Virus record (IMG/VR): IMGVR_UViG_3300027969_003536
Span: 1-43,310 of that record
Length of the DNA: 43,310 nucleotides
Direction: 5' to 3' (one strand)
Source of the DNA: a virus
The notes below the pieces were generated by a model. It made no database searches. It was not told where the DNA came from and saw only the letters and a program-made list of their open reading frames with translations. This document shows, piece by piece, positions 9,297 through 38,158 of this stretch (position 1 is its first letter; each line of letters starts with the position of its first letter). The position numbers were made by a program, and so were the translations under genes.

Positions 9297-10280
9297 ATGA
9301 CGCAAGACTTCACAAAGATACCATTCGATAATATAATAAGATTTGGTCAACGCACTATGTTGCATCGCCCATTATTTTCCACCAGTTGGATTTTGGGTCG
9401 TTTCTGCAATTATAACTGTAGTTACTGTTGGCCCTATGCCCGTAGTGACAAAATAGATTATCAACCATTTGATGTCTATACCAACGCCATAGACGAAATC
9501 AAAAAACAAGCTCGCCAAAATGGATTCAATGAATTTCATTGGAGCTTCAGTGGGGGTGAACCCACTGCTTATAAACAATTAACGGATTTGGTCAAGCACC
9601 TAGACGAAACAGAAAGCACATATCAAAGCATACACATGACCACAAATTTGAGTCCAGGGTCAAAGTGGTGGAAAACTTGGTGTGCTAACACATCATTGTT
9701 ACAACGTAGAAGTATCACAGCATCATTCCATGATGAGTTTGCCCGCGAACAAGAGTTTGGAGATAAATGTTTACAATTACAGTATGAATTAGTACACGTA
9801 ACTGTTAACCAAGTTATGGTTCCTGAAAAATTCTACGAACTCTACGATAGGATGGAACGATTGCATGATCGTGGAATCAATGTGACACTAAAACCGCAAA
9901 GCGATCCGACTGCTAGTAATATTATTGACGGGTACACCAAAGATATGATACACAAGATGCAGACAGGGTTTCCGCAACGTTCTATCGGTGAAGAGGTTTA
10001 TCAAGTTGCACTGTATGATCATACAGGCCAAGAATATCTATTTGATCAAGCGGAAAGATTTAATGCTTTTGATTTTAATAAATTTCGAGGTTGGAGTTGC
10101 AATAGTGGTTATCAAAGTGTTATAATAAGAGGTAATGAAGTTAAACGGGCATATAGTTGTAAGGAAGAATCGTTAGGCTTGATTGAGAATTTTACCTTAT
10201 TTTCTTCACCGAAGATTTGTATAACAGATCAATGTGTTAGTTCAGCTGATAGCAAAATACCCAAGGTTAAAAATGTTTAA
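9297..10280 (+). CDS. Radical SAM protein with SPASM-like C-terminal cysteines
   Basis: 327 residues. The 4Fe-4S/SAM motif is C37-NYN-C41-SY-C44, followed by SFSGGEPTAYKQL (the GGE SAM-binding motif) near residue 88. The C-terminal part has GWSCNSG, then YSCKEES, then ICITDQCVSSAD, a cysteine set likely to hold a second Fe-S cluster. Two other proteins in the island (12685-13701 and 16725-17624) share this exact arrangement. It opens the plus-strand operon and overlaps the SGNH gene by 8 nt. Radical SAM/SPASM enzymes modify peptides or small molecules; the substrate here is unknown. Confidence 0.85.
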   Translation: MTQDFTKIPFDNIIRFGQRTMLHRPLFSTSWILGRFCNYNCSYCWPYARSDKIDYQPFDVYTNAIDEIKKQARQNGFNEFHWSFSGGEPTAYKQLTDLVKHLDETESTYQSIHMTTNLSPGSKWWKTWCANTSLLQRRSITASFHDEFAREQEFGDKCLQLQYELVHVTVNQVMVPEKFYELYDRMERLHDRGINVTLKPQSDPTASNIIDGYTKDMIHKMQTGFPQRSIGEEVYQVALYDHTGQEYLFDQAERFNAFDFNKFRGWSCNSGYQSVIIRGNEVKRAYSCKEESLGLIENFTLFSSPKICITDQCVSSADSKIPKVKNV

Positions 10281-11028
10281 TAAGTTTTTTGATACAATAC
10301 CTAATAGAATTAGAAATAATAAATTCCTACATGTAGCCAACGACGGCAATGAATGGGCCGGATCTGATATAAAAAGTACATTTCTTGAAAATTTAAAAAA
10401 GCAACCAGTCGATTGGTATTATCGAAATAACAAGATACAGTACAACTACAACTCTGATGGATACAGAACTAAAGAATTTAAAGAAGTGGATTGGAAAAAT
10501 TCTATAGTAATGTTTGGATGTTCGGTAACAAATGGCATCGGATTGCATGAGGAAGATACCATTACCAATCGTCTAGAGCAACAGTTAGATATCCCTGTTA
10601 TTAACATGGGTGTTGGTGCTTCATCAATGCTATTCAATCTACACAATTTATCAATACTGCACGATGGATACCCTGCCCCAAAAGGCGTTATTGTAATCTG
10701 GCCTACTTACAAACGAATAGTCGAATATGGTAAATTCAAATTTATGCCGCACGGGCCGTGGGACATGAAACCTAACTCTTTAATTGACGTATGGCTTAAG
10801 AATGATAATCATGCTGTTGCTAATGCAATGTTTATCAGCAAAATAAGCCGATTGATGTGGAAAGATAAATGTCAATATCTTGAATACTCTTGGTGTAGCG
10901 AAACCACTAAAATTCTAAAATGTAAAAAAACATCATCGCATATAGACTTGGGTAGAGATTTACTACATCCGGGAATAAAAACAGCCAACGCAATAGCGAA
11001 TCTTATAGCAGAAGATGTTGCAATATGA
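10273..11028 (+). CDS. SGNH/GDSL-family hydrolase-like protein
   Basis: 251 residues from the ATG at 10273 (MFNKFFDTIPNR); a longer in-frame start at 10234 would lie inside the radical SAM gene. Block I is VMFGCSVTNGIGL with the nucleophile-type Ser in GCS, NMGVGASSM supplies the Gly/Asn oxyanion region, and DLLHPGIKTANAIA near the end gives the D-x2-H catalytic pair. No signal peptide is seen, so it probably acts in the cytoplasm as an esterase or deacetylase. It is coupled to both neighbours by short overlaps. Confidence 0.7.
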   Translation: MFNKFFDTIPNRIRNNKFLHVANDGNEWAGSDIKSTFLENLKKQPVDWYYRNNKIQYNYNSDGYRTKEFKEVDWKNSIVMFGCSVTNGIGLHEEDTITNRLEQQLDIPVINMGVGASSMLFNLHNLSILHDGYPAPKGVIVIWPTYKRIVEYGKFKFMPHGPWDMKPNSLIDVWLKNDNHAVANAMFISKISRLMWKDKCQYLEYSWCSETTKILKCKKTSSHIDLGRDLLHPGIKTANAIANLIAEDVAI

Positions 11029-11615
11029 AAATAGATACCGAACACTTACACTATTGGATGCAGGCTATTAGGCAAAGCCCTGATCCTAAACGAACGCTTG
11101 ATGCATTTTGGCGAGGCCAGATGCAAAGTAAAGAATGGCTGATTGAGAATCTGCAACCTTTAGTCAATAGTCCCTCTAGAATCGACATCCACGGAGGATG
11201 GGTTGGAGTATTAGCCAGCATGATATTTCAAAGTAAGATACCTGCACGTTATATTTGTAGTGTGGATATTGATCCTACATGCGAACCCATCGCTACCATG
11301 ATGAATAAGCATGAAGAAATTGACGGAAAGTTTAGAGCTATTACAGGTGACATGTGTACTGTTCCAGTAAGTGGTAATGTCATAGTCAACACCAGTTGCG
11401 AGCATATTACACAAGAGCAATATGAAACCTGGTTAGCAAGATTACCCAAAGACAGTATTGTTGTACTGCAAAGTAACAACTATGATATTCCGGAACATGT
11501 TAGAATTGCACAGACACTAGAAGAATTTAAAAAACAGAGCCACCTAACAGAACTTTGGTCAGGCATGTTAAAAACACAGTTGTATACTCGCTGGATGATC
11601 ATAGGAACTGTATAA
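11025..11615 (+). CDS. Class I SAM-dependent methyltransferase-like protein
   Basis: 196 residues. A Rossmann-type motif I appears as RIDIHGGWVGVLASM (about 53-67), motif II as ICSVDIDPTCEPIA, then FRAITGDM and NVIVNTSCEHI as the acidic and post-II positions. Motif I is divergent (HGGWVG in place of GxGxG), so cofactor binding is probable rather than certain. It overlaps the SGNH gene by ATGA and the next gene by TAATG, so all three are translated together. Confidence 0.6.
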   Translation: MKIDTEHLHYWMQAIRQSPDPKRTLDAFWRGQMQSKEWLIENLQPLVNSPSRIDIHGGWVGVLASMIFQSKIPARYICSVDIDPTCEPIATMMNKHEEIDGKFRAITGDMCTVPVSGNVIVNTSCEHITQEQYETWLARLPKDSIVVLQSNNYDIPEHVRIAQTLEEFKKQSHLTELWSGMLKTQLYTRWMIIGTV

Positions 11616-12688
11616 TGTTTTTTTCTATAAGCAAACAAAAAAACAACGATTTTCCAAATCATATTCGATGGGGAGAGTTCTTTGTTGACTTTGATAATGG
11701 ATGGGCTGTAACAGACTCAACTATATCCAAAGGGCATGAAGGTAAGTCTTGCAAGATACAATACACAGTTAATTCGGTACAACTAACAACAGGGATAAGA
11801 CAGACCTTTCCTATCTTTATCAATGATGAAAAATTTATAGTTTCTAATTTATTGCACCTGCCTGAATTTTTTGTAGGAGATGTTTCTATAACAACAGACA
11901 GTATTACACGAACTAAAACAGCAGAACCAACATTTGTTAAATTAGATCTAACAGACGACAAGATTATTGACCAAATAAACACTACAATTGAACAGTCAAT
12001 TTTAAATTTTAAATTTGATAAACCTGTAAAATTGTTTTTAACAGGTGGAGTTGATACACTATTGTTGGCGGCTTATGTGGTTAAGCATGGCATTCCTTAC
12101 GAATTAGTAAATTATGAACACTTTGATTTAGATTATTTTATGTGTCACAACAGGTCTAAATTAAAACAATTCTGGGCCTACAAAAGTTTGCAGTATTGGC
12201 GAACTCCGGAGGTGTTATTGTCTGGGGCCAACGGTGACGAAATGCTCATGCGTAATCCACATGACGCTTGTATAACATTAAATCATTTTGGCGAAGATAT
12301 CATTGAAGTTTCCAAACAACAACATTATTATCACAGCAATTATTTCACGAAAGAAAAGTTTGCTGGCATAATTGATCATGCAAAGACATTGTCCTTTGCC
12401 ACCGAACAAGAACTTAAACATCATATCGTTGTTAGAAACAGCATGGATTGGCAGCATTGGCATTTGGGAAATACTATTACCCTCACACCCTACGATAATT
12501 TAAACTTGATAAATCTTGTGTTGAATTTAAGTTACCCGGTTCTTAGAACACAGATACTTGATGCCGGCATTCATAAATTATTGATTGAAAGAAATGCTCC
12601 AAACTTGTTAAGACTTTTATCTAACGATAAGAATACAAATAATTTTAAAAATTTATCTGCACTTTATGAAGGATTAGAATCTTTATGA
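11615..12688 (+). CDS. Asparagine-synthetase-like ATP pyrophosphatase without glutaminase domain
   Basis: 357 residues from the ATG at 11615. The PP-loop is KLFLTGGVDTLLLAAY (about 139-154), a variant of SGGxDS. SGANGDEMLMRNP further on corresponds to the SGxGxDE segment of asparagine synthetase B and beta-lactam synthetase. The N-terminal 110 residues lack Cys2 and other glutaminase residues, so ammonia would have to come from elsewhere, or another nucleophile is used. Such enzymes adenylate a carboxylate and form an amide. In this island that would mean amidating or cyclising an intermediate. Both key motifs are slightly altered. Confidence 0.7.
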   Translation: MFFSISKQKNNDFPNHIRWGEFFVDFDNGWAVTDSTISKGHEGKSCKIQYTVNSVQLTTGIRQTFPIFINDEKFIVSNLLHLPEFFVGDVSITTDSITRTKTAEPTFVKLDLTDDKIIDQINTTIEQSILNFKFDKPVKLFLTGGVDTLLLAAYVVKHGIPYELVNYEHFDLDYFMCHNRSKLKQFWAYKSLQYWRTPEVLLSGANGDEMLMRNPHDACITLNHFGEDIIEVSKQQHYYHSNYFTKEKFAGIIDHAKTLSFATEQELKHHIVVRNSMDWQHWHLGNTITLTPYDNLNLINLVLNLSYPVLRTQILDAGIHKLLIERNAPNLLRLLSNDKNTNNFKNLSALYEGLESL

Positions 12689-13701
12689 AACCTGTAGCTA
12701 TAGTAAACCCAGACTTTGACGAATACCTCAGTATACGTTATGAGTTTACAAATGTTTGTAACTACAGATGTAATTACTGCTGGCCCGATTCACACGCAGG
12801 AACAACTTCATGGCCGGACTTTGATGTAATCTGTAAGAACTTTGATCACCTAATTACAATTTATAAAACACATTTTAACAAGAAACTGTTCAGCATTGAG
12901 CTAACAGGTGGTGAGCCAACGCTTTGGCCCAAGCTAGGAGAGTTTGTAAAGTTCTTAAAAGAGAGACACGGCGTTAGAGTATCAGTTAACACCAACGGCT
13001 CACGCACATTAAGATGGTGGAAAGAATATTCGCAGTATTTTAACGACATTGCAATCAGTGTGCATCATGAATTCTGTGATATAGAACACATAAAAGAATT
13101 GCTAGATTTGGTCTATACCAACGATACAACTATTTCCGGAGCATCGGTACTGATGGATCCTAATGCATGGGACAAGTGTACACAGCTTGTAGACACGCTG
13201 GTAGCACATCCAACTCCTTGGTTGGTAAAAACTACAACATTGCTAACAGCATCTGGCGAAGACACCGGCATTATAAAAAATTACACTGAAGAACAACTCT
13301 TGTATCTAAAAGATAAAGTTAAGAAACTTCCTCCAAAAGAATATCTTGACAAGATGAAATCCCTTAACAACATACATGAAGATAAAACTCAAGCAGTTAT
13401 TACATGGGCAGACGGAACAAAAGAACCCTACAAGTCTTTTACTCTTATCAGCAAAAAATTAAATAATTTTTACGGTTGGGAATGTAACCTGGGTGTTGAT
13501 CGTGTTAATGTACAAAAAGATGGCTCATTTCAAGGTGCCTGCGGCGAGCTTAAAATATTTGGAGACAACTATTTTAAAATACATGATCCAGACTTTGCTG
13601 AAAAATTTACTCCTGATGTGATCAAACCTATTAGATGTTCAATGGCTATCTGTGGATGCAGATCTGAAGTACGTATACCTAAACGTAAACTAGATGTATA
13701 A
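12685..13701 (+). CDS. Radical SAM protein, same subfamily as 9297-10280
   Basis: 338 residues. Cluster motif C25-NYR-C29-NY-C32 followed by WPDSHAG; SIELTGGEPTLWPKL at about 69-83; VSVNTNGSRTLRWWKEY. The C-terminal cysteine set is GWECNLGVDRVNV, then GACGELK, then IRCSMAICGCRSE, like the proteins at 9297 and 16725. It overlaps the asparagine-synthetase-like gene by ATGA and the next radical SAM gene by 8 nt. It likely carries one auxiliary Fe-S cluster. Substrate unknown. Confidence 0.85.
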   Translation: MKPVAIVNPDFDEYLSIRYEFTNVCNYRCNYCWPDSHAGTTSWPDFDVICKNFDHLITIYKTHFNKKLFSIELTGGEPTLWPKLGEFVKFLKERHGVRVSVNTNGSRTLRWWKEYSQYFNDIAISVHHEFCDIEHIKELLDLVYTNDTTISGASVLMDPNAWDKCTQLVDTLVAHPTPWLVKTTTLLTASGEDTGIIKNYTEEQLLYLKDKVKKLPPKEYLDKMKSLNNIHEDKTQAVITWADGTKEPYKSFTLISKKLNNFYGWECNLGVDRVNVQKDGSFQGACGELKIFGDNYFKIHDPDFAEKFTPDVIKPIRCSMAICGCRSEVRIPKRKLDV

Positions 13702-14668
13702 TTTAGAAAACATTAAAACTATTCATCTCGAAGTCACTAGTCGATGTCAAGCCAGTTGTCCTATGTGTGTGCGCAACGTACAAGGAGGCATTGATAGTCC
13801 TAATTTAACTATAAGTGAAATTACATTAGCACAATTTAAAGAATGGTTTCCGTTTAATTTTATACAGCAATTAGATAGGCTGTACATGTGTGGTAACACA
13901 GGTGATCCTATTATTGCCAAAGACACATTAACTATATTTCAATATTTGCGTGAAGTTAATCCAACCATTGATTTAGGCATGAATACTAACGGAAGTGCAA
14001 GAACACAGAATTGGTGGGAGGAACTAGCCCGAGCCGATGTTAAAGTTATATTTGGTATTGACGGTCTAGAGGACACACATAGTTTATATCGTATAGGCAC
14101 TGATTACCAACAGATATTACGTAACGCTAGAGCATTTATCGATGCAGGTGGTCACGCAGAATGGCATATGTTGATATTTGAACATAATCAACATCAGGTA
14201 GAAGACTGCCGTACCTTAAGTGTGCAATCTAAGTTTGACAAGTTTGTTGCCAAACATACCAGTAGATTTCAAAACGACAGCCTACAAGTATTAAATAAAG
14301 ATGGAACAACAAGCCACATTTTACGACCGTCTATTAAAAGTAAACAAATTACAGAAAAGTTATTGTCACAGCAACCTGTAATTAGTTGTAAAGTAAAAGA
14401 ACCCGGAAGCCTATATATCAGCGCAGAAGGTAAGATTGCTCCGTGTTGTTGGTTAGAGTTTAACGCTGTGCCTAACACATCGGCGAGTTATATAGATTTT
14501 GCCAACAAAGGATTTACTAATCCGGATTTAAATCTGCAAACATTAGCTGATGTGTTTAATGGTAATTTCTTTAACGACATAGAAAAGACATGGGCATCTG
14601 ATCCGTTGCACTCATGCAGCAGACAATGCGGATCGGTGGACAAATTTAATGAACAATTTAACCAATAA
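13694..14668 (+). CDS. Radical SAM/SPASM protein
   Basis: 324 residues. HLEVTSRC18-QAS-C22-PM-C25 opens the barrel, NTNGSARTQNWW is a typical substrate-side strand, and KVIFGIDGLEDTHSLYRIG follows. The C-terminus has SLYISAEGKIAPCCWLEF and LHSCSRQCGS, a standard SPASM-type region for one or two extra Fe-S clusters. It differs from the three-member GWxC subfamily in the island. Such enzymes often act on peptides or amino acids. It overlaps the next gene by 20 nt. Confidence 0.85.
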   Translation: MYNLENIKTIHLEVTSRCQASCPMCVRNVQGGIDSPNLTISEITLAQFKEWFPFNFIQQLDRLYMCGNTGDPIIAKDTLTIFQYLREVNPTIDLGMNTNGSARTQNWWEELARADVKVIFGIDGLEDTHSLYRIGTDYQQILRNARAFIDAGGHAEWHMLIFEHNQHQVEDCRTLSVQSKFDKFVAKHTSRFQNDSLQVLNKDGTTSHILRPSIKSKQITEKLLSQQPVISCKVKEPGSLYISAEGKIAPCCWLEFNAVPNTSASYIDFANKGFTNPDLNLQTLADVFNGNFFNDIEKTWASDPLHSCSRQCGSVDKFNEQFNQ

Positions 14669-16079
14669 GATTTTTTGGAAATCGCATAACAACAATACCC
14701 TGAAGGTATGGCAGGAACGTATTGAAGAAATATCCGGGACAACTACGTTTTGTGCGTTACCCTGGATACACGTTGCTACACGACCCAACGGCGATGCGAG
14801 ACTGTGCTGCGGATCAAACGCTAGTCAAGCTACTAAAGGTGATCTCACAGCAGGACTGGTTAAAAAAGAAAATGGTGAGCCAGCTAATTTTGGCACAGAT
14901 ACTCTCATGAGCGCATTCAACAATGAATACATGAAAGATGTGCGTACAACCATGCTAGAAGGAAAGATTCCATTAAGTTGTGCCAAGTGCTTTGAAGAAG
15001 AATCAAACGGAGTGACAAGCAAGAGAGTATGGGAAACTTACTATTGGGATCAGGAGGGGCTTGATCTAAAAGAGATCATTGAATCTACAGCACAAGACGG
15101 TACTATACCTCCTGTTATTAGATATTTGGATCTTAGACTAGGACATACTTGTAATTTAAAATGTATCATGTGTACTCCGCATGACAGCAGTCGTTGGACA
15201 CAAGACCATGATCAACTTATCAATAAAACTCGTGCGCCTATTGTACTGCAACAGATACAGTGGGACAAAACAAAGTTTAATAACACATGGTATGAACGTC
15301 CAGAACTATGGGAAGAAATCTTCGAACAAATTCCTAATATACAACAGTTGTATTTTGCTGGTGGTGAACCATTAATGATCAAAGAACATAGACGATTCTT
15401 AGAAGAGATAGTGTTACGTGGATACAGCAAAAACATCACAGTACGTTATAATTCTAATGGTGTCCTTGTAGACGACAAGATGATTGAATTATGGAGCAAT
15501 TTCAAAGAAGTAAGATTTGCATTTAGCATTGATGCACTAATGGAACGCAACCATTATATTAGGTATCCTGTTAGTTGGGACGAAACTGTTGCAGCACTAC
15601 ACAAATTAGACCACACACCCGATAATATCAAAATAGGTATCGCATGTGCTATTCAAATCTTTAATATCAAACATATTGTAGAGTTTGCCAAGTGGAAAAT
15701 TCAACAAGGTTTTAAAAAGATCAATAAGTTTAAAATTGACAGATACGAAGCAGGCGGTGGTATACTTAACATGCACTTCTTATACCTGCCAACTTACCTA
15801 AGTGCTCGCATACTGCCAGAAAAAGACAAAGATGAATTAGTACAGCAGTTTTCAGAGTTCAAGCAATGGCTGTGGGATAATTATACACAACACGACGACT
15901 TTTGGAAACACAATCCCAACGGATGGAGACGTTGGGAAGCTGTATTAAAGTTTGTGCTGGCAGAAGATCACACACATTTAATTCCTGCGTTCACAGAATA
16001 TGCAGATAACATGGATGATATTAGAGGGACTGATTGGCGAGCAATTTTTCCTGAACTAAAAGGTATTTCAAATGACTAA
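14649..16079 (+). CDS. Radical SAM protein with N-terminal auxiliary-cluster (twitch-like) region
   Basis: 476 residues. The N-terminus has FCALPWIHVATRPNGDARLCCG (C35, C53, C54) and LSCAKCFEEE (C111, C114), which look like cluster-binding cysteines ahead of the core. The core motif is C168-NLK-C172-IM-C175, then LYFAGGEPLMIKEH and VRYNSNGVLVD. This order, auxiliary site first and barrel second, is typical of twitch-domain radical SAM proteins in marine phages and bacteria (memory-based). The start at 14649 overlaps the previous gene by 20 nt. Substrate unknown. Confidence 0.85.
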   Translation: MNNLTNKIFWKSHNNNTLKVWQERIEEISGTTTFCALPWIHVATRPNGDARLCCGSNASQATKGDLTAGLVKKENGEPANFGTDTLMSAFNNEYMKDVRTTMLEGKIPLSCAKCFEEESNGVTSKRVWETYYWDQEGLDLKEIIESTAQDGTIPPVIRYLDLRLGHTCNLKCIMCTPHDSSRWTQDHDQLINKTRAPIVLQQIQWDKTKFNNTWYERPELWEEIFEQIPNIQQLYFAGGEPLMIKEHRRFLEEIVLRGYSKNITVRYNSNGVLVDDKMIELWSNFKEVRFAFSIDALMERNHYIRYPVSWDETVAALHKLDHTPDNIKIGIACAIQIFNIKHIVEFAKWKIQQGFKKINKFKIDRYEAGGGILNMHFLYLPTYLSARILPEKDKDELVQQFSEFKQWLWDNYTQHDDFWKHNPNGWRRWEAVLKFVLAEDHTHLIPAFTEYADNMDDIRGTDWRAIFPELKGISND

Positions 16080-16728
16080 CGAAGAATTAGAACGTGCAGC
16101 ACTGTGGAACAGTTTAACTAACCTAGGAAACTATGTACAGTTAGATCTGCGTATTAACGAACCGGAAGTCACAGAAAAATTAGAACAGTTTAAAGACAGT
16201 TGGTGTCCGTATAATCAAAAGAAAGATATACACAACAACCGTTGGGGATTACCAGTTACTAGTCACACAGGTGATGTTATAGATAACTATCATCTTAATA
16301 GTTTTGGTTACATGCAGAAATATCACGATGTTGAAATGAAGGAAGAAAATTTTAATGTCCCTACAGATGTTTATAATGCTGTTCCAGACTTTAAAAAATT
16401 AGTGGATGTGTTCTCGCCCGATATTGGCCGTGTGCATGTGCTTAGGGTTGATCAAGGTGGATATTTCCCCCCGCATAGAGACATGCCAGGTGTTGCTCCC
16501 GAATACTTTAGATTGACCTGTGTATTCGGTGCGTGTACAAATTTTAGTTACGCACAAATATTAGACGATAAGTTATTTTATCCTGAGCGCAATTATTTGT
16601 ATTTTGTTAATTTTCAACTGAATCATAGTGTGTTTAGTTTTAGCAATAATTTATATAATCTCATTCTAACAGTCAAACTGAATAGAAGAACACACGATTT
16701 GATCATTAAACATTCAATGTCAAGATGA
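16072..16728 (+). CDS. Fe(II)/2-oxoglutarate oxygenase-like protein
   Basis: 218 residues. The jelly-roll signature is RVDQGGYFPPHRDMPG (H135, D137), with the distal His in FQLNHSVFSFSNN (H185) and a late basic residue after NLILTVKLNRR. These fit the facial triad H-x-D...H of the Asp/Asn hydroxylase-like group. It overlaps the radical SAM genes on either side by 8 and 4 nt, so it is made with them and may act on the same substrate. Hydroxylation or another oxidation is the family chemistry; the substrate is unknown. Confidence 0.7.
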   Translation: MTNEELERAALWNSLTNLGNYVQLDLRINEPEVTEKLEQFKDSWCPYNQKKDIHNNRWGLPVTSHTGDVIDNYHLNSFGYMQKYHDVEMKEENFNVPTDVYNAVPDFKKLVDVFSPDIGRVHVLRVDQGGYFPPHRDMPGVAPEYFRLTCVFGACTNFSYAQILDDKLFYPERNYLYFVNFQLNHSVFSFSNNLYNLILTVKLNRRTHDLIIKHSMSR

Positions 16729-17624
16729 AACTGACCTATCAAGATCCCAATAAAGACAATTGGTTTCTTGTTACCTGGAACTTGGGTAACAAATGTAACT
16801 ATAGGTGTAGCTATTGTCCTAGCATGTTTAACGATGGTAGTACAGGATGGCCAGACTGGACCGATGTAAAAAACTTTGTAATCAAATTAAATCAAGAATT
16901 GCCATATAAAGATATCTGTTTTAGAATCAGCGGGGGAGAACCCACTTACTGGAAACACTTTTTAGAATTTGCAGAACTAGTTAAGTCATTTGGAAATAGC
17001 TTTACATTTTTATCAAATGGTAGCAGAGACATTGAATATTTTTCAACCATTGGCAAGTTATCCAGCGGCATATTATTAAGTTATCATCCTGAATATTCTA
17101 GTCCTGATCATTTCATTGAAATTGCAAATGCGTCTAAAGTACCGGTGGCAGTTAACATGATGATGGTTCCTGAGAAGTTTGATCAACTAGTGAACATATC
17201 TAAGCACATGCATGATAATAGTAGTGTTGCGATTTGGCCAAAGATGGTCTTAGATAAAATTAATATGACCAATCAAGTTGCTGATTACACTCAAGAACAA
17301 AAAGACTTTATTAAAAACTGGCCTTACTTTAGACCCTTAGACGACAAAAAAATGCATCGAGGTGTATTGTTATTAGATGAAGTGCCTATTACAGCAAACG
17401 AATTAGTGTTACAAGGATTAAACAAACACAAAGGTTGGCAGTGTTGGGCAGGCATTGACATGATCAACATTGACTACACTGGTAATGTGTTTAGTGCCGA
17501 TTGCGGACAAGGTCCGTTGGGAACAATACAAGATTTTACATTGCCTAGAGGACCGCTTATTTGCGGTAAAGAACGTTGTAGTTGTCTAAGTGATATCTAT
17601 CTTAGAAAAGAATATCAAAGTTAA
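16725..17624 (+). CDS. Radical SAM protein, third member of the GWxC subfamily
   Basis: 299 residues. Motif C24-NYR-C28-SY-C31 followed by PSMFNDGSTGWPDW; RISGGEPTYWKHFLEF; TFLSNGSRDIEYFS. The C-terminal set is GWQCWAGIDMINIDY, then FSADCGQGPLG, then LICGKERCSCLSD. It closes the first plus-strand operon (9297-17624) and overlaps the convergent beta-propeller gene by 23 nt. Its partners and chemistry are probably those of the paralogues at 9297 and 12685. Confidence 0.85.
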   Translation: MKLTYQDPNKDNWFLVTWNLGNKCNYRCSYCPSMFNDGSTGWPDWTDVKNFVIKLNQELPYKDICFRISGGEPTYWKHFLEFAELVKSFGNSFTFLSNGSRDIEYFSTIGKLSSGILLSYHPEYSSPDHFIEIANASKVPVAVNMMMVPEKFDQLVNISKHMHDNSSVAIWPKMVLDKINMTNQVADYTQEQKDFIKNWPYFRPLDDKKMHRGVLLLDEVPITANELVLQGLNKHKGWQCWAGIDMINIDYTGNVFSADCGQGPLGTIQDFTLPRGPLICGKERCSCLSDIYLRKEYQS

Positions 17625-20423: not shown

Positions 20424-20445
20424 ATTTAATCAGATAAGTAGTAGC

Positions 20446-25421: not shown

Positions 25422-25476
25422 AAATACAGTAAACTGATGCTGTACAAGAATTTTTTTAAATATTTTTGCATGATAA

Positions 25477-25484
25477 TATTTATA
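25477..25484 (-). promoter_or_regulatory. T4-late-like promoter box TATAAATA
   Basis: An exact TATAAATA on the minus strand lies in the 78-nt divergent gap, 56 nt upstream of the desaturase ATG. If used as in T4, the desaturase-ANL-GNAT operon is transcribed late. No -35 element is visible for this direction, as expected for T4-type late promoters. Confidence 0.5.
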
Positions 25485-25499
25485 GGTAAATAGGATACT

Positions 25500-26321: not shown

Positions 26322-26406
26322 TTGGTTTAGAACAATTTATATCAAAATTAAATATCGCAAAAAACTCAAAGAACTTTCTAAACGATCGCCATTTATCTAT
26401 CGGTAA
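26314..26406 (+). CDS. 30-residue basic peptide
   Basis: An ATG overlapping the SGNH stop (26314) opens a 30-codon frame: MFNWFRTIYIKIKYRKK, then LKELSKRSPFIYR. It is followed after 3 nt by the B12 radical SAM gene. Eleven Lys or Arg in 30 residues and an amphipathic aromatic start are notable. The first residues recall the starts of the genes at 30677 (MFNIFKKR) and 32844 (MFNWFKKR). It exactly fills the gap between two coupled genes, which supports translation. Its function is unknown. Confidence 0.45.
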   Translation: MFNWFRTIYIKIKYRKKLKELSKRSPFIYR

Positions 26407-26409
26407 TTA

Positions 26410-28347: not shown

Positions 28348-29423
28348 AAGTAACAAAATTTCCTGTAGGTAACTATGGTATTATTATTGATGATTTAGAT
28401 TTAGATAATATGTCTGCTGAAGAATGGCAAGAAGTTGGAAAGTTACATCTGCAGAATCTTGTTACAGTCGTTCGTGGAAGCAGGTGTTCCGTTAATAAAT
28501 TTTCAGAACTTATACATCAATGGGGGCCTGAGTTTTGGGGTCTAAAATATTCGTTGCTAAAAAAGTATAAACTAGATTGGCCGACGTTTCAATCAGCGGT
28601 ACTAGCAGACTTGCCATGTATCGAACAAGTAGACAAGGATATATTAGACATATTGTATCAAGCTAGTATCACTACTGACAATGGTAAGAGCGTAAACTTT
28701 TTTAGCTCATCTAAGGACAGCAAAGGAGATTACGGATTGTATGGTGGCCAAGAATTAGATTGGCACATGCACTCTAGTGGAAATTATGTATTCGAACCTG
28801 CTGTTAGTTTATTAGCCGCAGAGAATGTGGTAGGTACTGCTACTGGGTTTGTTAATACTGCCAACTACTATGAGAATGTAAGCAATAGTTTTCGTAGTGA
28901 ATTAGATGAAATGACAGTACTGCATAGATACACAGGAGCTGATGTAATACCTCCATTTAAACCCAGCGAAGAAGCAGTGCTACGTTTTAAAATGTGTCCA
29001 CATGATGATACCGAATTACCTATGGTTGTTCGTAGTCCAGGAGGCATACGTGGATTACATTTTGCTCCACCTACACTGTTTGCAATTAAAGGTACTGGTA
29101 TTAAGGAAAGTCATAAAATATTCGATGCTATTAGTAAAGAACTATTCACAGACAAGTATGTGCATGATCACTGGTACGCACAGGACGGTGACTTTATGAC
29201 GTTTGATAACAGCATTACACTGCATCGTCGGTTGGGTCAAACTGAAAACAGAAAGATATATCGTATAGAGCATACTTACGATAATCTACTTGACAGTTTC
29301 TATGAACCATTTTATCAAGAAGAATATGCTAGTAAACATAGAAAAGCAATAAAGCAGATTATGAAACTTGAAAAGCACTCGGGATTCATTAAGCCTCCTT
29401 TTAAATTCAAGGACCTATTATGA
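28344..29423 (+). CDS. TauD/TfdA-like dioxygenase with altered metal motif
   Basis: 359 residues. The family's W-H-x-D/E motif appears as LDWHMHSSGNY (H141, H143), so the carboxylate position is His. The distal part is FMTFDNSITLHRRLGQTENRKIYRIEH with H294 and a C-terminal Arg for 2OG. TGFVNTANYYENV is also typical. The fold assignment is good; the His in place of Asp/Glu could change iron coordination or indicate a different reaction. It is co-transcribed with a B12 radical SAM enzyme and a methyltransferase, suggesting successive steps on one substrate. Confidence 0.72.
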   Translation: MKVTKFPVGNYGIIIDDLDLDNMSAEEWQEVGKLHLQNLVTVVRGSRCSVNKFSELIHQWGPEFWGLKYSLLKKYKLDWPTFQSAVLADLPCIEQVDKDILDILYQASITTDNGKSVNFFSSSKDSKGDYGLYGGQELDWHMHSSGNYVFEPAVSLLAAENVVGTATGFVNTANYYENVSNSFRSELDEMTVLHRYTGADVIPPFKPSEEAVLRFKMCPHDDTELPMVVRSPGGIRGLHFAPPTLFAIKGTGIKESHKIFDAISKELFTDKYVHDHWYAQDGDFMTFDNSITLHRRLGQTENRKIYRIEHTYDNLLDSFYEPFYQEEYASKHRKAIKQIMKLEKHSGFIKPPFKFKDLL

Positions 29424-30103
29424 CTCCTAAAGAAATAGAAATAAAAGAATTTTACGATACCGTAACCTTTCCAGGATTATACAATGAACAGGATATCACT
29501 GTAATAGAAGATTATTTGATTTTTGAACGTTACTTAGATTTCATACAGGCCAACAATATTAAGACTCTGTTAGACATCGGATGCGGTACCGGATACGTAA
29601 CTAATATCATTGCATATCATTGTCCAAACATACAGATCGTTGCTGTAGATTTTAGCGATGCTATTAAACACGGCAAGACGATGGCTAACAAATTAGGTAT
29701 TAAAAATATAACATGGATACAGAAAGACTTTCACGAATTTGAAAGCGACACAACTTTTGACCTTGTACTAAGCAACGGTAGTATACATCACATGCCCAAA
29801 TTTGATCAAGCATTAGACAAGGCAAAGAATCTAACACATAAGTTTATGATGATAGGCCTATATAACAAATACGGCAAGTGGATGCAACGAAAGATTCGTC
29901 CCAAATTTGTTACAGAGTGCTTTGAAATTGATCAGTTGAAAATTCCATTTGAACTTAGTTTTACCAACAGACAGGTACATAACTATTTCAAGGGTTGGAA
30001 TTTTCTTAAAGTTACTCCAAGCATCTTTGGACTAGGTGTAGATTTCTTTAGTCTGTTCCGTGGCAAGTGGGGCGGATTTACTTTTTATTATTTTAAGAAG
30101 TAA
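29420..30103 (+). CDS. Class I SAM-dependent methyltransferase
   Basis: 227 residues. Motif I LLDIGCGTGYVTNII (about 50-64), motif II IVAVDFSDAIKHG, then TWIQKDFHEF and DLVLSNGSIHHMPKFD. These are a complete SAM-binding set. The C-terminal RKIRPKFVTECFEID and FELSFTNRQVHNYFKGW may contact the substrate. It is the last gene of the second plus-strand operon and overlaps the convergent gene by 11 nt. The methyl acceptor is unknown. Confidence 0.87.
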   Translation: MTPKEIEIKEFYDTVTFPGLYNEQDITVIEDYLIFERYLDFIQANNIKTLLDIGCGTGYVTNIIAYHCPNIQIVAVDFSDAIKHGKTMANKLGIKNITWIQKDFHEFESDTTFDLVLSNGSIHHMPKFDQALDKAKNLTHKFMMIGLYNKYGKWMQRKIRPKFVTECFEIDQLKIPFELSFTNRQVHNYFKGWNFLKVTPSIFGLGVDFFSLFRGKWGGFTFYYFKK

Positions 30104-30677
30104 TGTAGTCTGCGAACATGGCCACAGCCATTTCAAAACCCACACGCCTAGGCTCTGATCGTTCTGCTAATGGTATGGCTAATGTCCATCTGCCTTCGGG
30201 GCCTGGATTCCATGTACTATGCAACATGCCAACTTGTACTATACTAGGACGATCTATTACAGCCCGATGTATCGGAATACATTCGTGTTCTTCTGCTCGT
30301 AAATAATTTACTCCAAATGAAGTTACAATAGGTTCTAATTTAATACCTGGTTTTGGCTCCCACCATATTAGTTCACTGTCCTTAGGTCCCCAGCTGAGAT
30401 TTATCCTAGCGAAGTCATCAATCTTATCAGAGTCGCCGTGAATCCAGATTTTTCCACCTGGCGGAGTATAGAATGCCTCCCATGATGGGATTCTTAATCC
30501 CGGTATGCTTTCCATAAAATCTACAAATTCTTTATTCAACATTGCTTTGGGATCTAGCTCAACATGATTTAATTGGTCTTTGTTATCAGGGAATAAACTA
30601 AAAAGATCAATCTCCGGCATCACCGGTAATTTTAGATACTGATGTACATACGGCCGTTTCTTAAAAATATTAAACAT
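30093..30677 (-). CDS. Cupin/2OG-oxygenase-like protein
   Basis: 194 residues from the ATG at 30677 (MFNIFKKRPYVHQY). Triad-type motif: TPPGGKIWIHGDSDKIDDFA (H-G-D), later PSIVQVGMLHSTWNPGPEGR with distal His and Arg in RWTLAIPL. It is a clear paralogue of 32245-32844 (shared start MFN-FKKR, EAFYTPP-GGKI, LIWWEPK, HSTWNP). The start chosen removes 7 residues of overlap into the SGNH gene. The oxygenase call is from motif geometry; a non-catalytic cupin is possible. Confidence 0.62.
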   Translation of the reverse strand: MFNIFKKRPYVHQYLKLPVMPEIDLFSLFPDNKDQLNHVELDPKAMLNKEFVDFMESIPGLRIPSWEAFYTPPGGKIWIHGDSDKIDDFARINLSWGPKDSELIWWEPKPGIKLEPIVTSFGVNYLRAEEHECIPIHRAVIDRPSIVQVGMLHSTWNPGPEGRWTLAIPLAERSEPRRVGFEMAVAMFADYITS

Positions 30678-31449
30678 AGAATATTCTTTTGATCTCATCT
30701 GCTATTAATTCATATCCATCTTGTGTAGGATGTATATCATTTGTCATATACTTGGCGGGATAGTCCATCTTTGGATAGTAGTTAGCAACAGCTTCAAATG
30801 TTTCTTCACATAGTCCGTCACGACGAACTAGCAGTTGAGCAAAGCAAACATAGTCAGTGTGTGAGTGTATATATCTATTCCAGTTTATCTGTTTTGATAT
30901 AGTAGGACACATGCTATCAAAATACTCCTTACCTCTCATTTCAAATGCGTTAGCGAAAATAAAATCAAAGTTATTTGCTTTTGCATAGTTCTGCGCTTCT
31001 AGTATGCAACAGGCTGTTTCTGCCGCAACTCCCGGCTCGTTATGTATAGCGTCGGCATACAGCCGATGCTCGTCCTTGTCATCTCGCTGCGGCCACATGG
31101 TTAAAAATTTATAATGATCAGTTTTCCAATTCTTATTGAAGAAATCAAATCTATCAAACCCAGTGAGCATTAGTACCACAGTTCCGCTGCTATACTCCGA
31201 ATAATCTTGTAGGTACAGCGATCGGACTGCACCTCGATTGCCAATGGCACGTTGACCTAGATTAACGGGGACATAATTTATCTTTTTAGCAAGACGATTA
31301 ACCCAACTGTTTTCTTGTTCAACCGGAATTAAGTGACGAGACTCTTCTAGCTTGAGCCACATACGACCATTATGAGCTTTCCAACGTTCATCTGGATATC
31401 CGCCTTCACCTTGCGTCCAACTACAACCTATACCGATTAGTGCTTTCAT
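30670..31449 (-). CDS. SGNH-family hydrolase-like protein
   Basis: 259 residues from the ATG at 31449 (MKALIGIGCSWTQGEGG), which overlaps the next gene's stop as ATGA. Block I is GIGCSWTQG with Ser10; VNLGQRAIGNRGAVR supplies the Gly/Asn positions; VVLMLTGFDRFDF and the catalytic NDIHPTQDGYELIADEI with D-x2-H close the set. It is the third SGNH protein of the island and differs from the two GCSVT types. Deacetylation or deacylation of a pathway product or glycan is a fair guess. Confidence 0.72.
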   Translation of the reverse strand: MKALIGIGCSWTQGEGGYPDERWKAHNGRMWLKLEESRHLIPVEQENSWVNRLAKKINYVPVNLGQRAIGNRGAVRSLYLQDYSEYSSGTVVLMLTGFDRFDFFNKNWKTDHYKFLTMWPQRDDKDEHRLYADAIHNEPGVAAETACCILEAQNYAKANNFDFIFANAFEMRGKEYFDSMCPTISKQINWNRYIHSHTDYVCFAQLLVRRDGLCEETFEAVANYYPKMDYPAKYMTNDIHPTQDGYELIADEIKRIFYV

Positions 31450-32264
31450 GATTTTAATCCGCCGAGCAACTGGCCTATGGTACAAGTATCACTGTCGATA
31501 AAGTTATCCATAATCTTTTTATACATCACAGGATTATTCTCCACTATCTGCTTTTTAGCAGGACTGTCTAAATTAAAATGACTTTTATGTATATTGTGCG
31601 TAGTAAGAAGACGACGAGCAGATATTGCTACTCGGTTAGTGCTAGTATCCTGAGTTTTATGTATACAGTATCCTCGCATGACCAGAGCATCACCCTGCTC
31701 TAACTGCGGACATTCGGAATAATCGTTTAGATTAAAATCTAACTCAATCTCCTTGCCCGTGTTGTCATCAAATATTCGACTAGTACTGCCAGCTTCGAAT
31801 CGTGTTGCTCCGTAATTTTTTAAGAATGCTAGCTCGGGATGATCATTTATTAATTGAATAAGATCTATTACTACGACATTGGTTAAATCTACACTAGGTT
31901 TTATTACAGGAATCCAGATATTAAGATAGTTTGTGTGATCGCCGTATAAGAACCAACTCTCGTGATCCTGATGATATTCAAAATTAACTCCGTGTTCTAT
32001 TGAAAAGTAGATAGGTGTAGATGTAAAATCAGTTGTAATATTAACTGAGTCTTGTATATCTTTTGACAACGCTTCAATCTTTGATAAAATATTATCTATC
32101 TTAACTTTTTTCCCTACAGGTAAGATATTAAAATTTGGATTTAAAAATTCTGTAGTTTTGATTAGATCAAAGTCTTGAGAAAGTTGTGATAAGTCGCCAG
32201 AGTTTAAAAAATTCTTAACAACACAATAGCTCTTATCGAGTAGATTAACAAAATTGTTTTTCAT
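31446..32264 (-). CDS. Phytanoyl-CoA-dioxygenase-like Fe(II)/2OG oxygenase
   Basis: 272 residues from the ATG at 32264 (MKNNFVNLLDKSYCVVKNFL). The N-terminal N-F-L-N-SGDL region is typical of PhyH-like enzymes. NFEYHQDHESWFLYGD gives H-x-D, YLNIWIPVI the following strand, GDALVMRGYCIHKTQDTSTN the distal His and RVAISAR the 2OG Arg. All triad residues are present, so it should be active. The substrate is unknown. It is coupled to the SGNH gene by ATGA and overlaps the preceding gene by 20 nt. Confidence 0.75.
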   Translation of the reverse strand: MKNNFVNLLDKSYCVVKNFLNSGDLSQLSQDFDLIKTTEFLNPNFNILPVGKKVKIDNILSKIEALSKDIQDSVNITTDFTSTPIYFSIEHGVNFEYHQDHESWFLYGDHTNYLNIWIPVIKPSVDLTNVVVIDLIQLINDHPELAFLKNYGATRFEAGSTSRIFDDNTGKEIELDFNLNDYSECPQLEQGDALVMRGYCIHKTQDTSTNRVAISARRLLTTHNIHKSHFNLDSPAKKQIVENNPVMYKKIMDNFIDSDTCTIGQLLGGLKS

Positions 32265-32844
32265 TGATATAGTGTCCTTGGAATCGATCAATGGCGTTAC
32301 TCCATACAAGTCGCTCGTTCGTTGTGTTATCTATTAGAGGCAAACTCAGGGTCCATCTTCCTTCTGTCGTTGGATTCCAAGTACTGTGAAATTGTCCAAT
32401 ATTAACTAGACTAGGTTTATTAATTTCAACTTCGTATAGATGCCTGCAATACTTTTCTTCCGCAGTCAAATACTGTGCTCCAAACTCTGTTTGATATGTT
32501 TCAATTTTGTTTTGATTTTTAGGTTCCCACCAGATGAGTTTACTGCCAGGTGCACCGTAGGTCCAATTGACTTTAACCACATCACATACTGTTGCAGTAT
32601 CGGTATGGATAGGAATTTTTCCGCCATATGGGGGAGTGTAAAATGCTTCAAACCAATAAAAACCAATATTGAATTGAGCAAACCACTTGACGAGATCAGG
32701 ATTAATTTCTGTGTCTTCTACTTTAATATGACGATAATACATAGGATCATAGTCAGTTCTAGAAAATAAATCAATACCTGGTGCTACTGGTATATCTAAG
32801 TATCGGTGATACGTATTTTCTCTTTTTTTAAACCAGTTAAACAT
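32245..32844 (-). CDS. Cupin/2OG-oxygenase-like protein, paralogue of 30093-30677
   Basis: 199 residues from the ATG at 32844 (MFNWFKKRENTYHRYLDIP). EAFYTPPYGGKIPIHTDTAT gives H-T-D; FHSTWNPTTEGRWTLSLPL gives the distal His and Arg. Shared features with the paralogue are the MFN-FKKR start, APGIDLFS/MPEIDLFS, LIWWEPK and the C-terminal HSTWNP block. The two copies flank the SGNH and PhyH-like genes, as if a block had been duplicated. Function inferred. Confidence 0.62.
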   Translation of the reverse strand: MFNWFKKRENTYHRYLDIPVAPGIDLFSRTDYDPMYYRHIKVEDTEINPDLVKWFAQFNIGFYWFEAFYTPPYGGKIPIHTDTATVCDVVKVNWTYGAPGSKLIWWEPKNQNKIETYQTEFGAQYLTAEEKYCRHLYEVEINKPSLVNIGQFHSTWNPTTEGRWTLSLPLIDNTTNERLVWSNAIDRFQGHYINEKQFC

Positions 32845-33667
32845 TGATATAATTTCCCAAGGAATTTTCACTGACCACGCAATAATCTTTATACGTAGTT
32901 ATACTGTTGTCTATGACTTCTTCATATTTTTCTATATTTAAAATACCCGTTGCAATTACAAGAATCTTTTTATATCCTGGAGTATATACGCTTCCATGCT
33001 TCACTCTTAGATTATTCCATACCCATGAATTGGTATTCGGTGCTTTAGGAACTTGTGTAACGGGTCCTTGAGAATACGGTTGTGTGGGATTATCAAAGAA
33101 ATACAAAGTCTCCTCTGGATTTTCATCGTAGAGTTTTATTCTAAAACTCATAGGCGTGTCAATCAGCTCCCCGGGATCTCTATGTTCAGTAAACGGTTTG
33201 TAACTTGACCACAGATGAAGTGTTAGAATATTTTCTATAGGTAATAGATCGTTGAACTGTTGCCAAAGGTGCGGAAATTCTTTTATGAAATTTTCTGTTT
33301 GCATATTGGGTGTCCAATAATGCTGAAATTTTTCTATAAGATCCACCGACTCTGCTGATGCATATCCTGTTTCAGGAGACAGGTGTTCACTGATTATTTT
33401 ATTTGGTTTTATAGCATACTTACTCCACCAATCGAAAAAATGATCTTTATCAGGCATTTCAAATTCAGGTAATGCTAGTGGAACTATGAGATACTTACCA
33501 TATTTTTTTTCTAGTTCCATTACCTCATTTATATTATGACCACAAAATGTGTTTAATTGTTCTTTGCGTGTATCAGTTAAAAACTTAATCAGGCTAGAGG
33601 GATCTGCTTTTTCCTGTTCTCTAAATGCTAAAAGATTAGGACTTGGATTTGTATTAAAATTGCTCAT
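32837..33667 (-). CDS. 2OG-oxygenase-like protein, first of a tandem pair
   Basis: 276 residues from the ATG at 33667 (MSNFNTNPSPNLLAFREQEK), which overlaps the upstream stop as ATGA. The N-terminal half is a helical region (LEKKYGKYLIVPLALPEFEMPD, HFFDWWSKYAI). The catalytic-type part has LHLWSSYKPFTEHRDPGEL (H-x-D), FRIKLYDENPEETLYFFDNP and WNNLRVKHGSVYTPGYKK with distal His. It is very similar in layout to the next gene. Arg for 2OG may be in the last block. Substrate unknown. Confidence 0.65.
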   Translation of the reverse strand: MSNFNTNPSPNLLAFREQEKADPSSLIKFLTDTRKEQLNTFCGHNINEVMELEKKYGKYLIVPLALPEFEMPDKDHFFDWWSKYAIKPNKIISEHLSPETGYASAESVDLIEKFQHYWTPNMQTENFIKEFPHLWQQFNDLLPIENILTLHLWSSYKPFTEHRDPGELIDTPMSFRIKLYDENPEETLYFFDNPTQPYSQGPVTQVPKAPNTNSWVWNNLRVKHGSVYTPGYKKILVIATGILNIEKYEEVIDNSITTYKDYCVVSENSLGNYINV

Positions 33668-34479
33668 ACATCCACATAGTTTTCTATGTTGTAATTGCTT
33701 TGTATACAATACTCACTGTAGGTTTCTATACTCTGTTCCATTAATGATTCGTACCTCGTTGGATTAACTAATCCCACTATGACTGCCAACACTTTTTTAT
33801 ATCCTGGGACATATACACTTCCATGTTTTACTCTCAAATTATTCCACATATATGAATTAGTAGTCGGTATTCTTGGGAAGAATTTTGGTTCTTCGCATTG
33901 ATATGGAGTTACCGGATTATCAAATACAAATAAAGTTTCATCGGGATTCTCATCATATAACTTTATCCTAAATGAGTTAGGGGCATCAACCATCTCAGCA
34001 CTATCTCTGTGCTCAGTGAATGGTTGTACACTTGACCATAAATTAATAACCAACAAATCATCACATGGTAACTGATCATAGAATTGTTGCCATAGGTATG
34101 GAAATTCTTGTTTAAAATTTTCAGTTTGTAAATTTAAATTCCAATCATCTCCTATTTTTTGTACAAGGTCAATAGATTCAAAAGGAGAGTATCCTGTTCC
34201 GGGTGCTACATAATCACCATGTTGTTTAGTAGGTCTAATAGCATATTTTTTCCACCAATGCATGAAATGATCAGAATCTGGAACTTCGAATAACGGCAAT
34301 GCCAACGGCACTAATAAATATTTTCCATATTTCTGTTCCAGCTCAAGAACTTTTGGATTATTGTTGAACATTTTTTCTATTTGAAATTTTCGCTGAGAAC
34401 TAAGATGATCGCGTAATTTTGAATCAGACTTTTCTTTCTCACGATGTTCTAAGGCACGTTCATTGGGTATGTATTTCAT
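33664..34479 (-). CDS. 2OG-oxygenase-like protein, second of a tandem pair
   Basis: 271 residues. It is parallel to its neighbour over the whole length: LEQKYGKYLLVPLALPLFEVPD, HFMHWWKKYAIRPTK, INLWSSVQPFTEHRDSAEM with H-x-D, FRIKLYDENPDETLFVFDNP and WNNLRVKHGSVYVPGYKK. The two clearly arose by tandem duplication. It starts with ATGA overlap on the Asp/Asn-hydroxylase gene. No substrate can be named; the EHRD and KHGSV blocks look intact. Confidence 0.65.
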   Translation of the reverse strand: MKYIPNERALEHREKEKSDSKLRDHLSSQRKFQIEKMFNNNPKVLELEQKYGKYLLVPLALPLFEVPDSDHFMHWWKKYAIRPTKQHGDYVAPGTGYSPFESIDLVQKIGDDWNLNLQTENFKQEFPYLWQQFYDQLPCDDLLVINLWSSVQPFTEHRDSAEMVDAPNSFRIKLYDENPDETLFVFDNPVTPYQCEEPKFFPRIPTTNSYMWNNLRVKHGSVYVPGYKKVLAVIVGLVNPTRYESLMEQSIETYSEYCIQSNYNIENYVDV

Positions 34480-35240
34480 TGAATCGCACCGTATTGATTT
34501 CGCAGTGTATCGTAGTATTTTCTGTCATACCGTGGTTGTCTAGAACTTAAATCTATTTCTGGATTAAATGGTGCGCAAGGAGTCATCCCTATATGTTCCA
34601 TGTCTAGGTCGATCATGAATATGACACGCCATTCATCTGAGGTGTTATATGCACTATGTGAATGTTGATTATTAAATCCCCAAATATCAGTCCATGTTAC
34701 TTCTTCACCACTGGCTTCTAAAAATAAATCACCTTCAGGTACAATCAACGGTACGTGTATTCTTATATACTTGCCTGTTCGGTTTTCAGGACCAGTGTGT
34801 CTGTGTAAAATTGTTTGCGGTGCTAGAATGCTGTAACTGGCTATGGGACAAAAATTCCCATATTCTTGTACAAGTTTGTATGCTGTAGGGTATCGTTTGG
34901 CTATACGATCGTTTGGTGATCTATCAAATTCAACATCAATCATGTCATCGTGGCGACCATATTTAAATTGCACATTCTTCCAACCACCGATGTTTCTTTT
35001 AAATTCACCACTAACTTTATCTTTTGATTCTATACCTTTAATAGTTTCTTCTAAAGGAACTCCGAAAGGTCTTAGGTCTAGCGCATCAGTTGAATATTTA
35101 ACACATGCTTCTTCAACTGAAGAACACCCCGCCATGAATTCGTTCCTTAATGCTTCTTGGAAACTCATTAGATAATCAGCTACGGGAATTTCGTTCCCTC
35201 GCCAGATTTTCTTCATTTTAAAGATTTCTTCTTCTGTCAT
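34476..35240 (-). CDS. Aspartyl/asparaginyl beta-hydroxylase-family protein (HTG type)
   Basis: 254 residues. The core is SYSILAPQTILHRHTGPENR, IRIHVPLIVPEGDLFLEASG, VTWTDIWGFNNQHSHSAYN and WRVIFMIDLD, the layout of AspH-type enzymes (PF05118). The metal motif reads H-T-G, with Gly where most 2OG oxygenases have Asp; animal AspH also has Gly there and uses two His. The paralogue at 39702 has H-T-D. The first gene of this minus-strand run, it has its ribosome binding site inside a 13-bp hairpin (35245-35279) that also contains a late-promoter-like box. Confidence 0.78.
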   Translation of the reverse strand: MTEEEIFKMKKIWRGNEIPVADYLMSFQEALRNEFMAGCSSVEEACVKYSTDALDLRPFGVPLEETIKGIESKDKVSGEFKRNIGGWKNVQFKYGRHDDMIDVEFDRSPNDRIAKRYPTAYKLVQEYGNFCPIASYSILAPQTILHRHTGPENRTGKYIRIHVPLIVPEGDLFLEASGEEVTWTDIWGFNNQHSHSAYNTSDEWRVIFMIDLDMEHIGMTPCAPFNPEIDLSSRQPRYDRKYYDTLRNQYGAIQ

Positions 35241-37841: not shown

Positions 37842-37843
37842 AT

Positions 37844-38089: not shown

Positions 38090-38095
38090 ACCATT

Positions 38096-38140: not shown

Positions 38141-38158
38141 GTTGTAAAAATGCCACAA

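Follow-up and report, generated by a model that had tools for sequence, protein, structure and literature searches.

Why would a virus carry some 26 kb of tightly packed radical and oxygenase chemistry, and is such a block one fixed pathway, an error of assembly, or something that phages exchange? We examined this question in a 43,310-base IMG/VR virus record, IMGVR_UViG_3300027969_003536 (hereafter the window, i.e., the whole stretch of DNA analyzed), in which genes g16 to g46 form an island rich in radical S-adenosylmethionine (radical SAM) proteins and 2-oxoglutarate (2OG) oxygenase-like proteins. The window is without end repeats and thus probably a fragment; its 58 genes (g01–g58) come from translated main open reading frames (ORFs), called mechanically with unrefined starts, and the contigs compared here are all metagenomic. 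With high confidence, the island is a real, recurring, and exchangeable phage element. It is hypervariable, lies at a fixed site by the tail-fiber genes of T4-like giant myophages, and consists of a near-constant core (g16, g18, g21, and g22) followed by accessory modules that are swapped en bloc among phages. The island and its core are as follows.

9297–35240, both strands: the island, g16–g46
9297–10280, plus strand: g16, core twitch-type radical SAM protein and signature gene (Pfam, alignments, structure model)
11025–11615, plus strand: g18, core class I methyltransferase-fold protein (AlphaFold model, predicted local distance difference test score 95.7, and Foldseek)
13694–14668, plus strand: g21, core radical SAM/SPASM enzyme (Pfam, alignment)
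14649–16079, plus strand: g22, core N-terminal-twitch radical SAM enzyme (NF033640)

A preliminary description, made from the letters of this DNA, had proposed a dense enzyme cluster here, and Pfam, motifs, and gene packing all bear this out: neighboring island genes overlap at 29 of 30 junctions, and the coding share is 99.7%, with a single gap of 88 nt. Six strand-alternating blocks (g16–24 plus, g25–27 minus, g28–31 plus, g32–35 minus, g36–39 plus, and g40–46 minus) suggest a mosaic put together from cassettes, and at about 36–39% GC the island is AT-richer than its flanks (about 41–44%). Exactly six genes encode radical SAM proteins (g16, g20, g21, g22, g24, and g37), the number originally claimed; each carries CxxxCxxC and, searched across the genome, scores above the Pfam threshold, with g37 slightly short of it as a single protein (26.7 vs. 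29.5 bits), and alignments and a motif check find the catalytic cysteines of the radical enzymes intact. The scale of the cluster is far beyond chance expectation.

Could the island instead be an assembly chimera, i.e., phage DNA joined to a bacterial cluster, as the preliminary description cautioned for both edges? A shift in GC at each edge and the presence of related core genes in Bdellovibrionota would fit such a join. The GenBank phage collection held no nucleotide relative of the island's first 8 kb; IMG/VR searches with g20 and then g16 recovered many contigs with the same left backbone (g01–g15) followed by g16, so that the gene order, whose recurrence had been posed as a check, is found again in many phage contigs. 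The whole layout is present in contig G017 (281,658 bp), which carries T4-type DNA polymerase, gp46-like, and tail-sheath genes and runs from backbone g01–g15 through an island at 230.2–262.5 kb to g47-, g48-, g52-, g53-, g56-, and g58-like genes. Since g15 on one side and g47, g48, and g52 on the other adjoin the island in independent contigs, G017 with its phage genes either side among them, there is no assembly join; the phage g16 clade also stands apart from bacterial g16 (support 100/100). We regard the chimera as refuted by these recurring junctions, with a probability that is practically nil.

What, then, is constant at this site and what changes? At least 559 relatives of g16 were confirmed in IMG/VR viral contigs, and locus counts cover the closest 80 of them, so the proportions given here describe close kin rather than the whole set. 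Of 62 viral loci, 41 have g15 just ahead of g16, and 11 have g08 close by instead. In the 32 viral loci that extend 9.5 kb or more past g16, g18 and g21 are each found 31 times and g22 26 times. Island size is 20–35 kb among phages of this family, and g47 holds the same position in G017 and in contigs G001 and G003. Exchange en bloc is shown by two comparisons. Against the window, the backbone of G017 has a median identity of 86% on the left and 85% on the right, and among the 31 island genes a counterpart reaching 40% is found only for g16, g18, g21, and g22; in G001, the left backbone has a median of 60%, and 27 island genes are kept in order at 50–83%. Two more ordered modules, g23–g33 and g36–g46, are common to many contigs. 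The chemistry does look multi-step and biosynthetic or tailoring-like, as had been supposed, but the single pathway of the preliminary description gives way to an exchangeable mosaic of constant core and replaceable modules.

Within the core, alignments of g16 show Cys37/41/44 and invariant Cys268/288/308/313, and the nearest solved structure to its model is MoaA. The N_Twi_rSAM family (NF033640) recognizes g22 at 383.9 bits (cut-off 170), with g16, g20, and g21 far lower. Compared with solved structures, g22 had no useful match, and g16, g20, and g21 matched generic radical SAM enzymes alone (e.g., MoaA, viperin, CteB, and TigE), so their substrate is not readable from structure. For g18, the top Foldseek match is nicotianamine synthase, at a template modeling score of only 0.64 and 13% identity. 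Structure prediction, suggested earlier as a check, gave a class I methyltransferase fold for g18 and, for g16, a model nearest a generic enzyme; of the two methyltransferases first named, g39 has a strong Pfam match and g18, for which Pfam offers none, is carried by its predicted fold.

The accessory part of the island comprises the following genes.

10234–11028, plus strand: g17, SGNH-like (GCSVT and DxxH motifs)
11555–12688, plus strand: g19, asparagine-synthetase-like PP-loop protein (motif only: TGGVDT, SGANGDE)
12685–13701, plus strand: g20, radical SAM enzyme (Pfam)
16072–16728, plus strand: g23, 2OG-oxygenase-like (HRD motif only)
16725–17624, plus strand: g24, twitch-type radical SAM protein (Pfam)
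17602–20008, minus strand: g25 and g26, two propeller-like proteins (sub-threshold Pfam)
19953–20423, minus strand: g27, APH/RIO-like kinase (Pfam APH)
20395–21664, plus strand: g28 and g29, Asp/Asn beta-hydroxylase-type 2OG oxygenases (Pfam, above cut-off)
21661–22071, plus strand: g30, dual-specificity phosphatase-like (weak Pfam)
22068–22718, plus strand: g31, Asp/Asn beta-hydroxylase-type 2OG oxygenase (Pfam)
22669–23253, minus strand: g32, protein without Pfam match, usually paired with g33
23231–23863, minus strand: g33, mini-ANL (AMP-binding) enzyme of 210 amino acids (Pfam E 2.3e-20; TSGSTxxPK, YGMTE)
23863–25634, minus strand: g34 and g35, fatty-acid desaturase family (Pfam)
25500–26321, plus strand: g36, SGNH-like (GCSVTA motif)
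26410–28347, plus strand: g37, B12-binding radical SAM protein, nearest to KedN5-type C-methyltransferase (Pfam, NF033712)
28344–29423, plus strand: g38, TauD/TfdA-family protein (Pfam E 4.5e-21)
29420–30103, plus strand: g39, SAM methyltransferase (Pfam)
30093–35240, minus strand: g40–g46, comprising 2OG-like g40, g42 (PhyH), g43, g44, g45, and g46 (AspH family) and SGNH-like g41 (Pfam, motifs)

How far the individual labels of the preliminary description held varies. All eleven 2OG-oxygenase-like proteins have an HxD/HxG plus distal H motif, and six also match a Pfam family (Asp_Arg_Hydrox in g28, g29, g31, and g46; TauD in g38; PhyH, barely above the cut-off, in g42), the other five (g23, g40, g43, g44, and g45) being 2OG-like by motif alone. 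The three SGNH hydrolases (g17, g36, and g41) retain GCS(V/W)T with no Pfam match; the asparagine-synthetase-like g19 yielded no significant profile, no PDB match, and no visible glutaminase domain; and the propeller-like g25 and g26 remained sub-threshold (E 0.037 and 0.0043). Both desaturases stand above the Pfam cut-off, the kinase falls in the APH family (g27, E 2e-6), the phosphatase match is weak (g30, E 0.011), and the ANL enzyme is indeed AMP-binding, though short: g33 keeps the central AMP-binding motifs and is missing the usual N-terminal part.

Among relatives, most islands have a g20-like gene, the g25/g26 pair is kept beside g23/g24 in other phages, and the order g40–g46 recurs in other contigs. 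The mini-ANL gene g33 is conserved across 25 viral loci, on contigs that include a 356-kb and a 186-kb one, and in some cases the rest of the module is lacking; the desaturases g34/g35 are missing in G001 and present in locus L213. Viperin was rejected as an identity for g20, to which it bears a weak likeness (58.8 bits, cut-off 180), and g37 is related to, without being a member of, the KedN5-type family NF033712 (140.6 bits, cut-off 700). In g38 the iron-binding HxD is replaced by HMH, possibly an altered metal site or the mark of a pseudoenzyme. The neighbors g44 and g45 (32837–34479) are tandem 2OG-like duplicates, 81% identical across 75 nt, with a single copy in G001.

On either side, the backbone reads as follows.

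110–916, minus strand: g01, candidate glycosyltransferase by DLDV motif only
876–1736, minus strand: g02, KDO-8-phosphate synthase (KdsA), a lipopolysaccharide (LPS)-sugar precursor enzyme (phmmer to PDB 3fs2, E 6.9e-102)
3908–5083, minus strand: g06, conserved backbone protein common to jumbo phages such as PA5oct
7719–8390, minus strand: g13, ThyX-like flavin-dependent thymidylate synthase (DNA match to annotated thyX)
8892–9083, minus strand: g15, gene at the left edge of the island (upstream of g16 in most viral loci, as counted above)
35302–37107, minus strand: g47, tail-fiber-like protein carrying an Mtd N-terminal domain, at the right edge of the island (Pfam PF18454)
37251–43217, minus strand: g48–g58 and six tRNA genes, the right-hand backbone

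Conservation beside the island site in long relatives is 59–88% for g01, which had no solved-structure match, and g13 is 58–97% conserved adjoining the same site; g02 adjoins the island in most long relatives. To the right, g48, g52, g53, g56, and g58 are 80–96% conserved in G017. Giant tail-fiber-like ORFs lie near the island. Amid the right-hand tRNA genes are two further 2OG oxygenases outside the island, g54 (39702–40352) and g57 (42209–42826). On the left, g03 (1884–2333) resembles 6-pyruvoyl-tetrahydropterin synthase/QueD by sequence only and lies near the radical SAM cluster; Campylobacter phage CP21 (L204, 2359–2964) likewise has an annotated QueD-like gene near such a cluster. Elsewhere in these phages, G017 has 19 radical SAM matches overall, with a second cluster of about five genes (matches near 145–151 kb) in the stretch 141,500–151,400 (L196), next to two copies of a DGDN glycosyltransferase-like gene, and G003 encodes DnaK-like and GroEL-like chaperones at 25,293–29,159 (L034).

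The core also has a chromosomal counterpart. In a g22 alignment the chromosomal relatives are mainly Bdellovibrionota, where g22 occurs with g21 and g16 and often g18; a g16 profile search at E 1e-40 was positive in 22 Bdellovibrionota genomes out of 369 and in none of 398 sampled from Pseudomonadota. Six bacterial loci with 94 proteins include 40 radical SAM proteins and 7 GT2 glycosyltransferases, together with a nucleotidyltransferase, a hexapeptide transferase, an APH kinase, a TauD protein, two AspH proteins, and a desaturase. In addition, a protein with DGDN and YGxGGxK, GT-A glycosyltransferase-like by motif and without profile or structure match, is found alongside the module in phages as well as in 10 bacterial loci. 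The bacterial islands thus share with the window the core and further radical SAM, TauD, AspH, and desaturase genes, but they are chromosomal and GT2-linked, and their core proteins are only 30–56% identical. The g16 tree separates phages from bacteria as two clades with support 100/100, which indicates an old association; a recent transfer of g16 from bacteria is unsupported. The extreme radical SAM density and GT2 mix are seen in islands including L059, L061, L063, L066, and L053, and no published description of dense radical SAM islands in Bdellovibrionota was found in a literature coverage that mostly lay outside subscription journals. One 3.5-kb contig binned as Thermoplasmata (L052) has a g22 at 57% that groups within the phage clade of the quick g22 tree, and is probably mis-binned phage DNA.

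Is a system of this kind new? Its general kind, radical SAM clusters by phage tail-fiber genes, is already known. The T4-like Campylobacter phages CP220 and CPt10 have 11–12 radical SAM genes and an interchangeable five-gene radical SAM module, whose non-homologous yet functionally alike versions were interpreted as en masse exchange (Timms et al. 2010, PMC2853527). As there, several radical SAM genes are swapped as a block while the backbone is conserved (G017 vs. G001), and in CP21, a relative of CP220/CPt10, radical SAM genes lie near tail-fiber genes. The differences are that our four-gene core is unrecognized there (best g16 match 21%, in CP21), that their glycine amidinotransferase has no such Pfam match among the window's 31 island proteins, that the backbone differs, and that the dense 2OG set was not seen in the stretch of those phages examined. 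The host recognition cluster of pelagimyophages is a hypervariable structural region with tail fibers, LPS-related genes, and radical SAM cassettes gained or lost (PMC7029224), and so resembles the island in its size, hypervariability, tail-fiber setting, and radical SAM genes, but it is glycosyltransferase-rich, belongs to phages of SAR11 hosts, and has no four-gene radical SAM core described, whereas the window's island has no Pfam glycosyltransferase. As for the position between VrlC and the neck gene gp14 that marks the pelagimyophage cluster, a giant tail-fiber-like ORF lies near one side here and G017 has T4-like replication and tail genes, gp14 not being identified.

Two further phages carry many radical SAM genes. 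Aeromonas giant phage 332-Vera has eight amid structural and tail-fiber genes (PMC12390700), a giant phage with radical SAM genes beside tail fibers as here but on a Chimallinviridae backbone, and it was not among the matches when the phage collection was searched with g16 and g22. The T4-like marine viral genome TARA_ERS488813_N000010 has 12, treated as iron-sulfur metabolism (PMC5332604) and not presented as an exchangeable island. Separately, Vibrio phage K566 (L205, 255 kb) has a radical SAM cluster and several hypothetical genes at 11890–22352, with an annotated pagP a few genes on; as PagP modifies lipid A by acylation, this may offer a cultured parallel for a surface theme. The early suggestion of an undescribed system is consequently narrowed by these precedents. 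Our literature search, which covered few subscription journals and is weak evidence of novelty, turned up no description of the four-gene core or how abundant it is, of block exchange at a fixed site, of the dense 2OG part, or of the Bdellovibrionota counterpart.

What might the island make? Our confidence in its function overall is moderate, and the reading we favor, at somewhat less than an even chance, is that it tailors an exchangeable surface glycoconjugate that would mask receptors or exclude superinfecting phages. The core would build or activate a common intermediate during infection, and accessory radical, oxygenase, methyl, acyl/ester, kinase, and amide-forming enzymes would finish it as a chemotype-specific glycoconjugate that would sit on the host LPS or envelope, or decorate the virion. 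A change of chemotype would alter receptor masking, superinfection exclusion, or fiber recognition, which would explain block swapping, as with O-antigen loci. We favor a glycoconjugate because of KdsA in the backbone, nucleoside diphosphate (NDP)-sugar epimerases that other islands contain (e.g., G017 at 233,438), the company of glycosyltransferases in bacteria, and the O-antigen-like exchange; the fixed, hypervariable site, its closeness to the fiber gene g47, and the DGDN protein found with the module also speak for it, and site and exchange both have precedent (PMC7029224, PMC2853527). Several points weigh against it. Pfam finds no classical glycosyltransferase, flippase, or polymerase among the 31 island proteins, and PF00535 is missing in nine of ten relative contigs; an O-antigen or capsule locus differs in having glycosyltransferases, flippase/polymerase, and NDP-sugar genes, all missing from the window, with NDP-sugar epimerases in other islands only. 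Further, SPASM/twitch radical SAM enzymes and AspH-type hydroxylases more often use peptides or proteins. More speculatively, and with clearly lower probability, g16-g18-g21-g22 may constitute an undescribed biosynthetic route, anciently shared by giant phages and Bdellovibrionota and yielding radical-tailored surface molecules of a new class, its accessory half exchanged as blocks and its chemotypes acting like O-antigen serotypes.

Because the enzyme families are usually peptide-acting and the window's island is without recognizable glycosyltransferases, the main rival, serious if unlikely, is that the island's enzymes modify a virion protein after translation, in all likelihood a tail fiber (g47 or the giant tail proteins), giving new receptor specificities. 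Its proposed agents, acting on side chains or the backbone of the neighboring variable fiber, would be the radical SAM/SPASM and B12 radical SAM enzymes, AspH-type hydroxylases, methyltransferases, and the asparagine-synthetase-like protein; SPASM/twitch domains are typical of peptide-modifying radical SAM enzymes, four oxygenases are of the AspH family, the island adjoins the Mtd-domain fiber g47 and lies near giant tail-fiber-like ORFs, and tail-fiber regions of unrelated phages hold radical SAM clusters. The bacterial core, by contrast, adjoins glycosyltransferases and not fiber genes, and desaturases, an ANL enzyme, NDP-sugar epimerases, and KdsA fit fiber modification poorly. Less probable again is a small diffusible or peptide-derived metabolite, either amino-acid-derived or like the ribosomally synthesized and post-translationally modified peptides (RiPPs), acting on the host or competitors: the mix of a B12 radical SAM protein near KedN5, an ANL domain, and an AsnB-like protein is like natural-product tailoring, and the g18 fold is nearest nicotianamine synthase, but Pfam scans of the island proteins found no carrier protein, non-ribosomal peptide or polyketide synthase, or exporter. 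An embedded RiPP precursor is rejected, as the coding density and lone short gap leave no space for its gene in the island. Less likely still, and to our minds improbable, is hypermodification of phage DNA (7-deazaguanine or 2OG-based) against restriction. The QueD-like g03, an assignment from sequence, QueC-family proteins in other islands, and the many 2OG proteins point that way; the 2OG families are of AspH, TauD, and PhyH types, and the scanned proteins included no QueE above cut-off and no guanine transglycosylase, whole phages not having been screened for the latter.

Phage clusters with many radical SAM genes have been termed highly unusual since 2010, and the literature surveyed gives them no defined core or function. 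The signature gene g16, the fixed site, the four-gene core, and the en bloc exchange now provide a handle on them, and the Bdellovibrionota counterpart might permit genetic testing. A large pool of radical SAM and 2OG candidate enzymes is marked out as well. If the product is a surface molecule, these giant phages would be carrying swappable complex chemistry that controls adsorption or excludes rivals.

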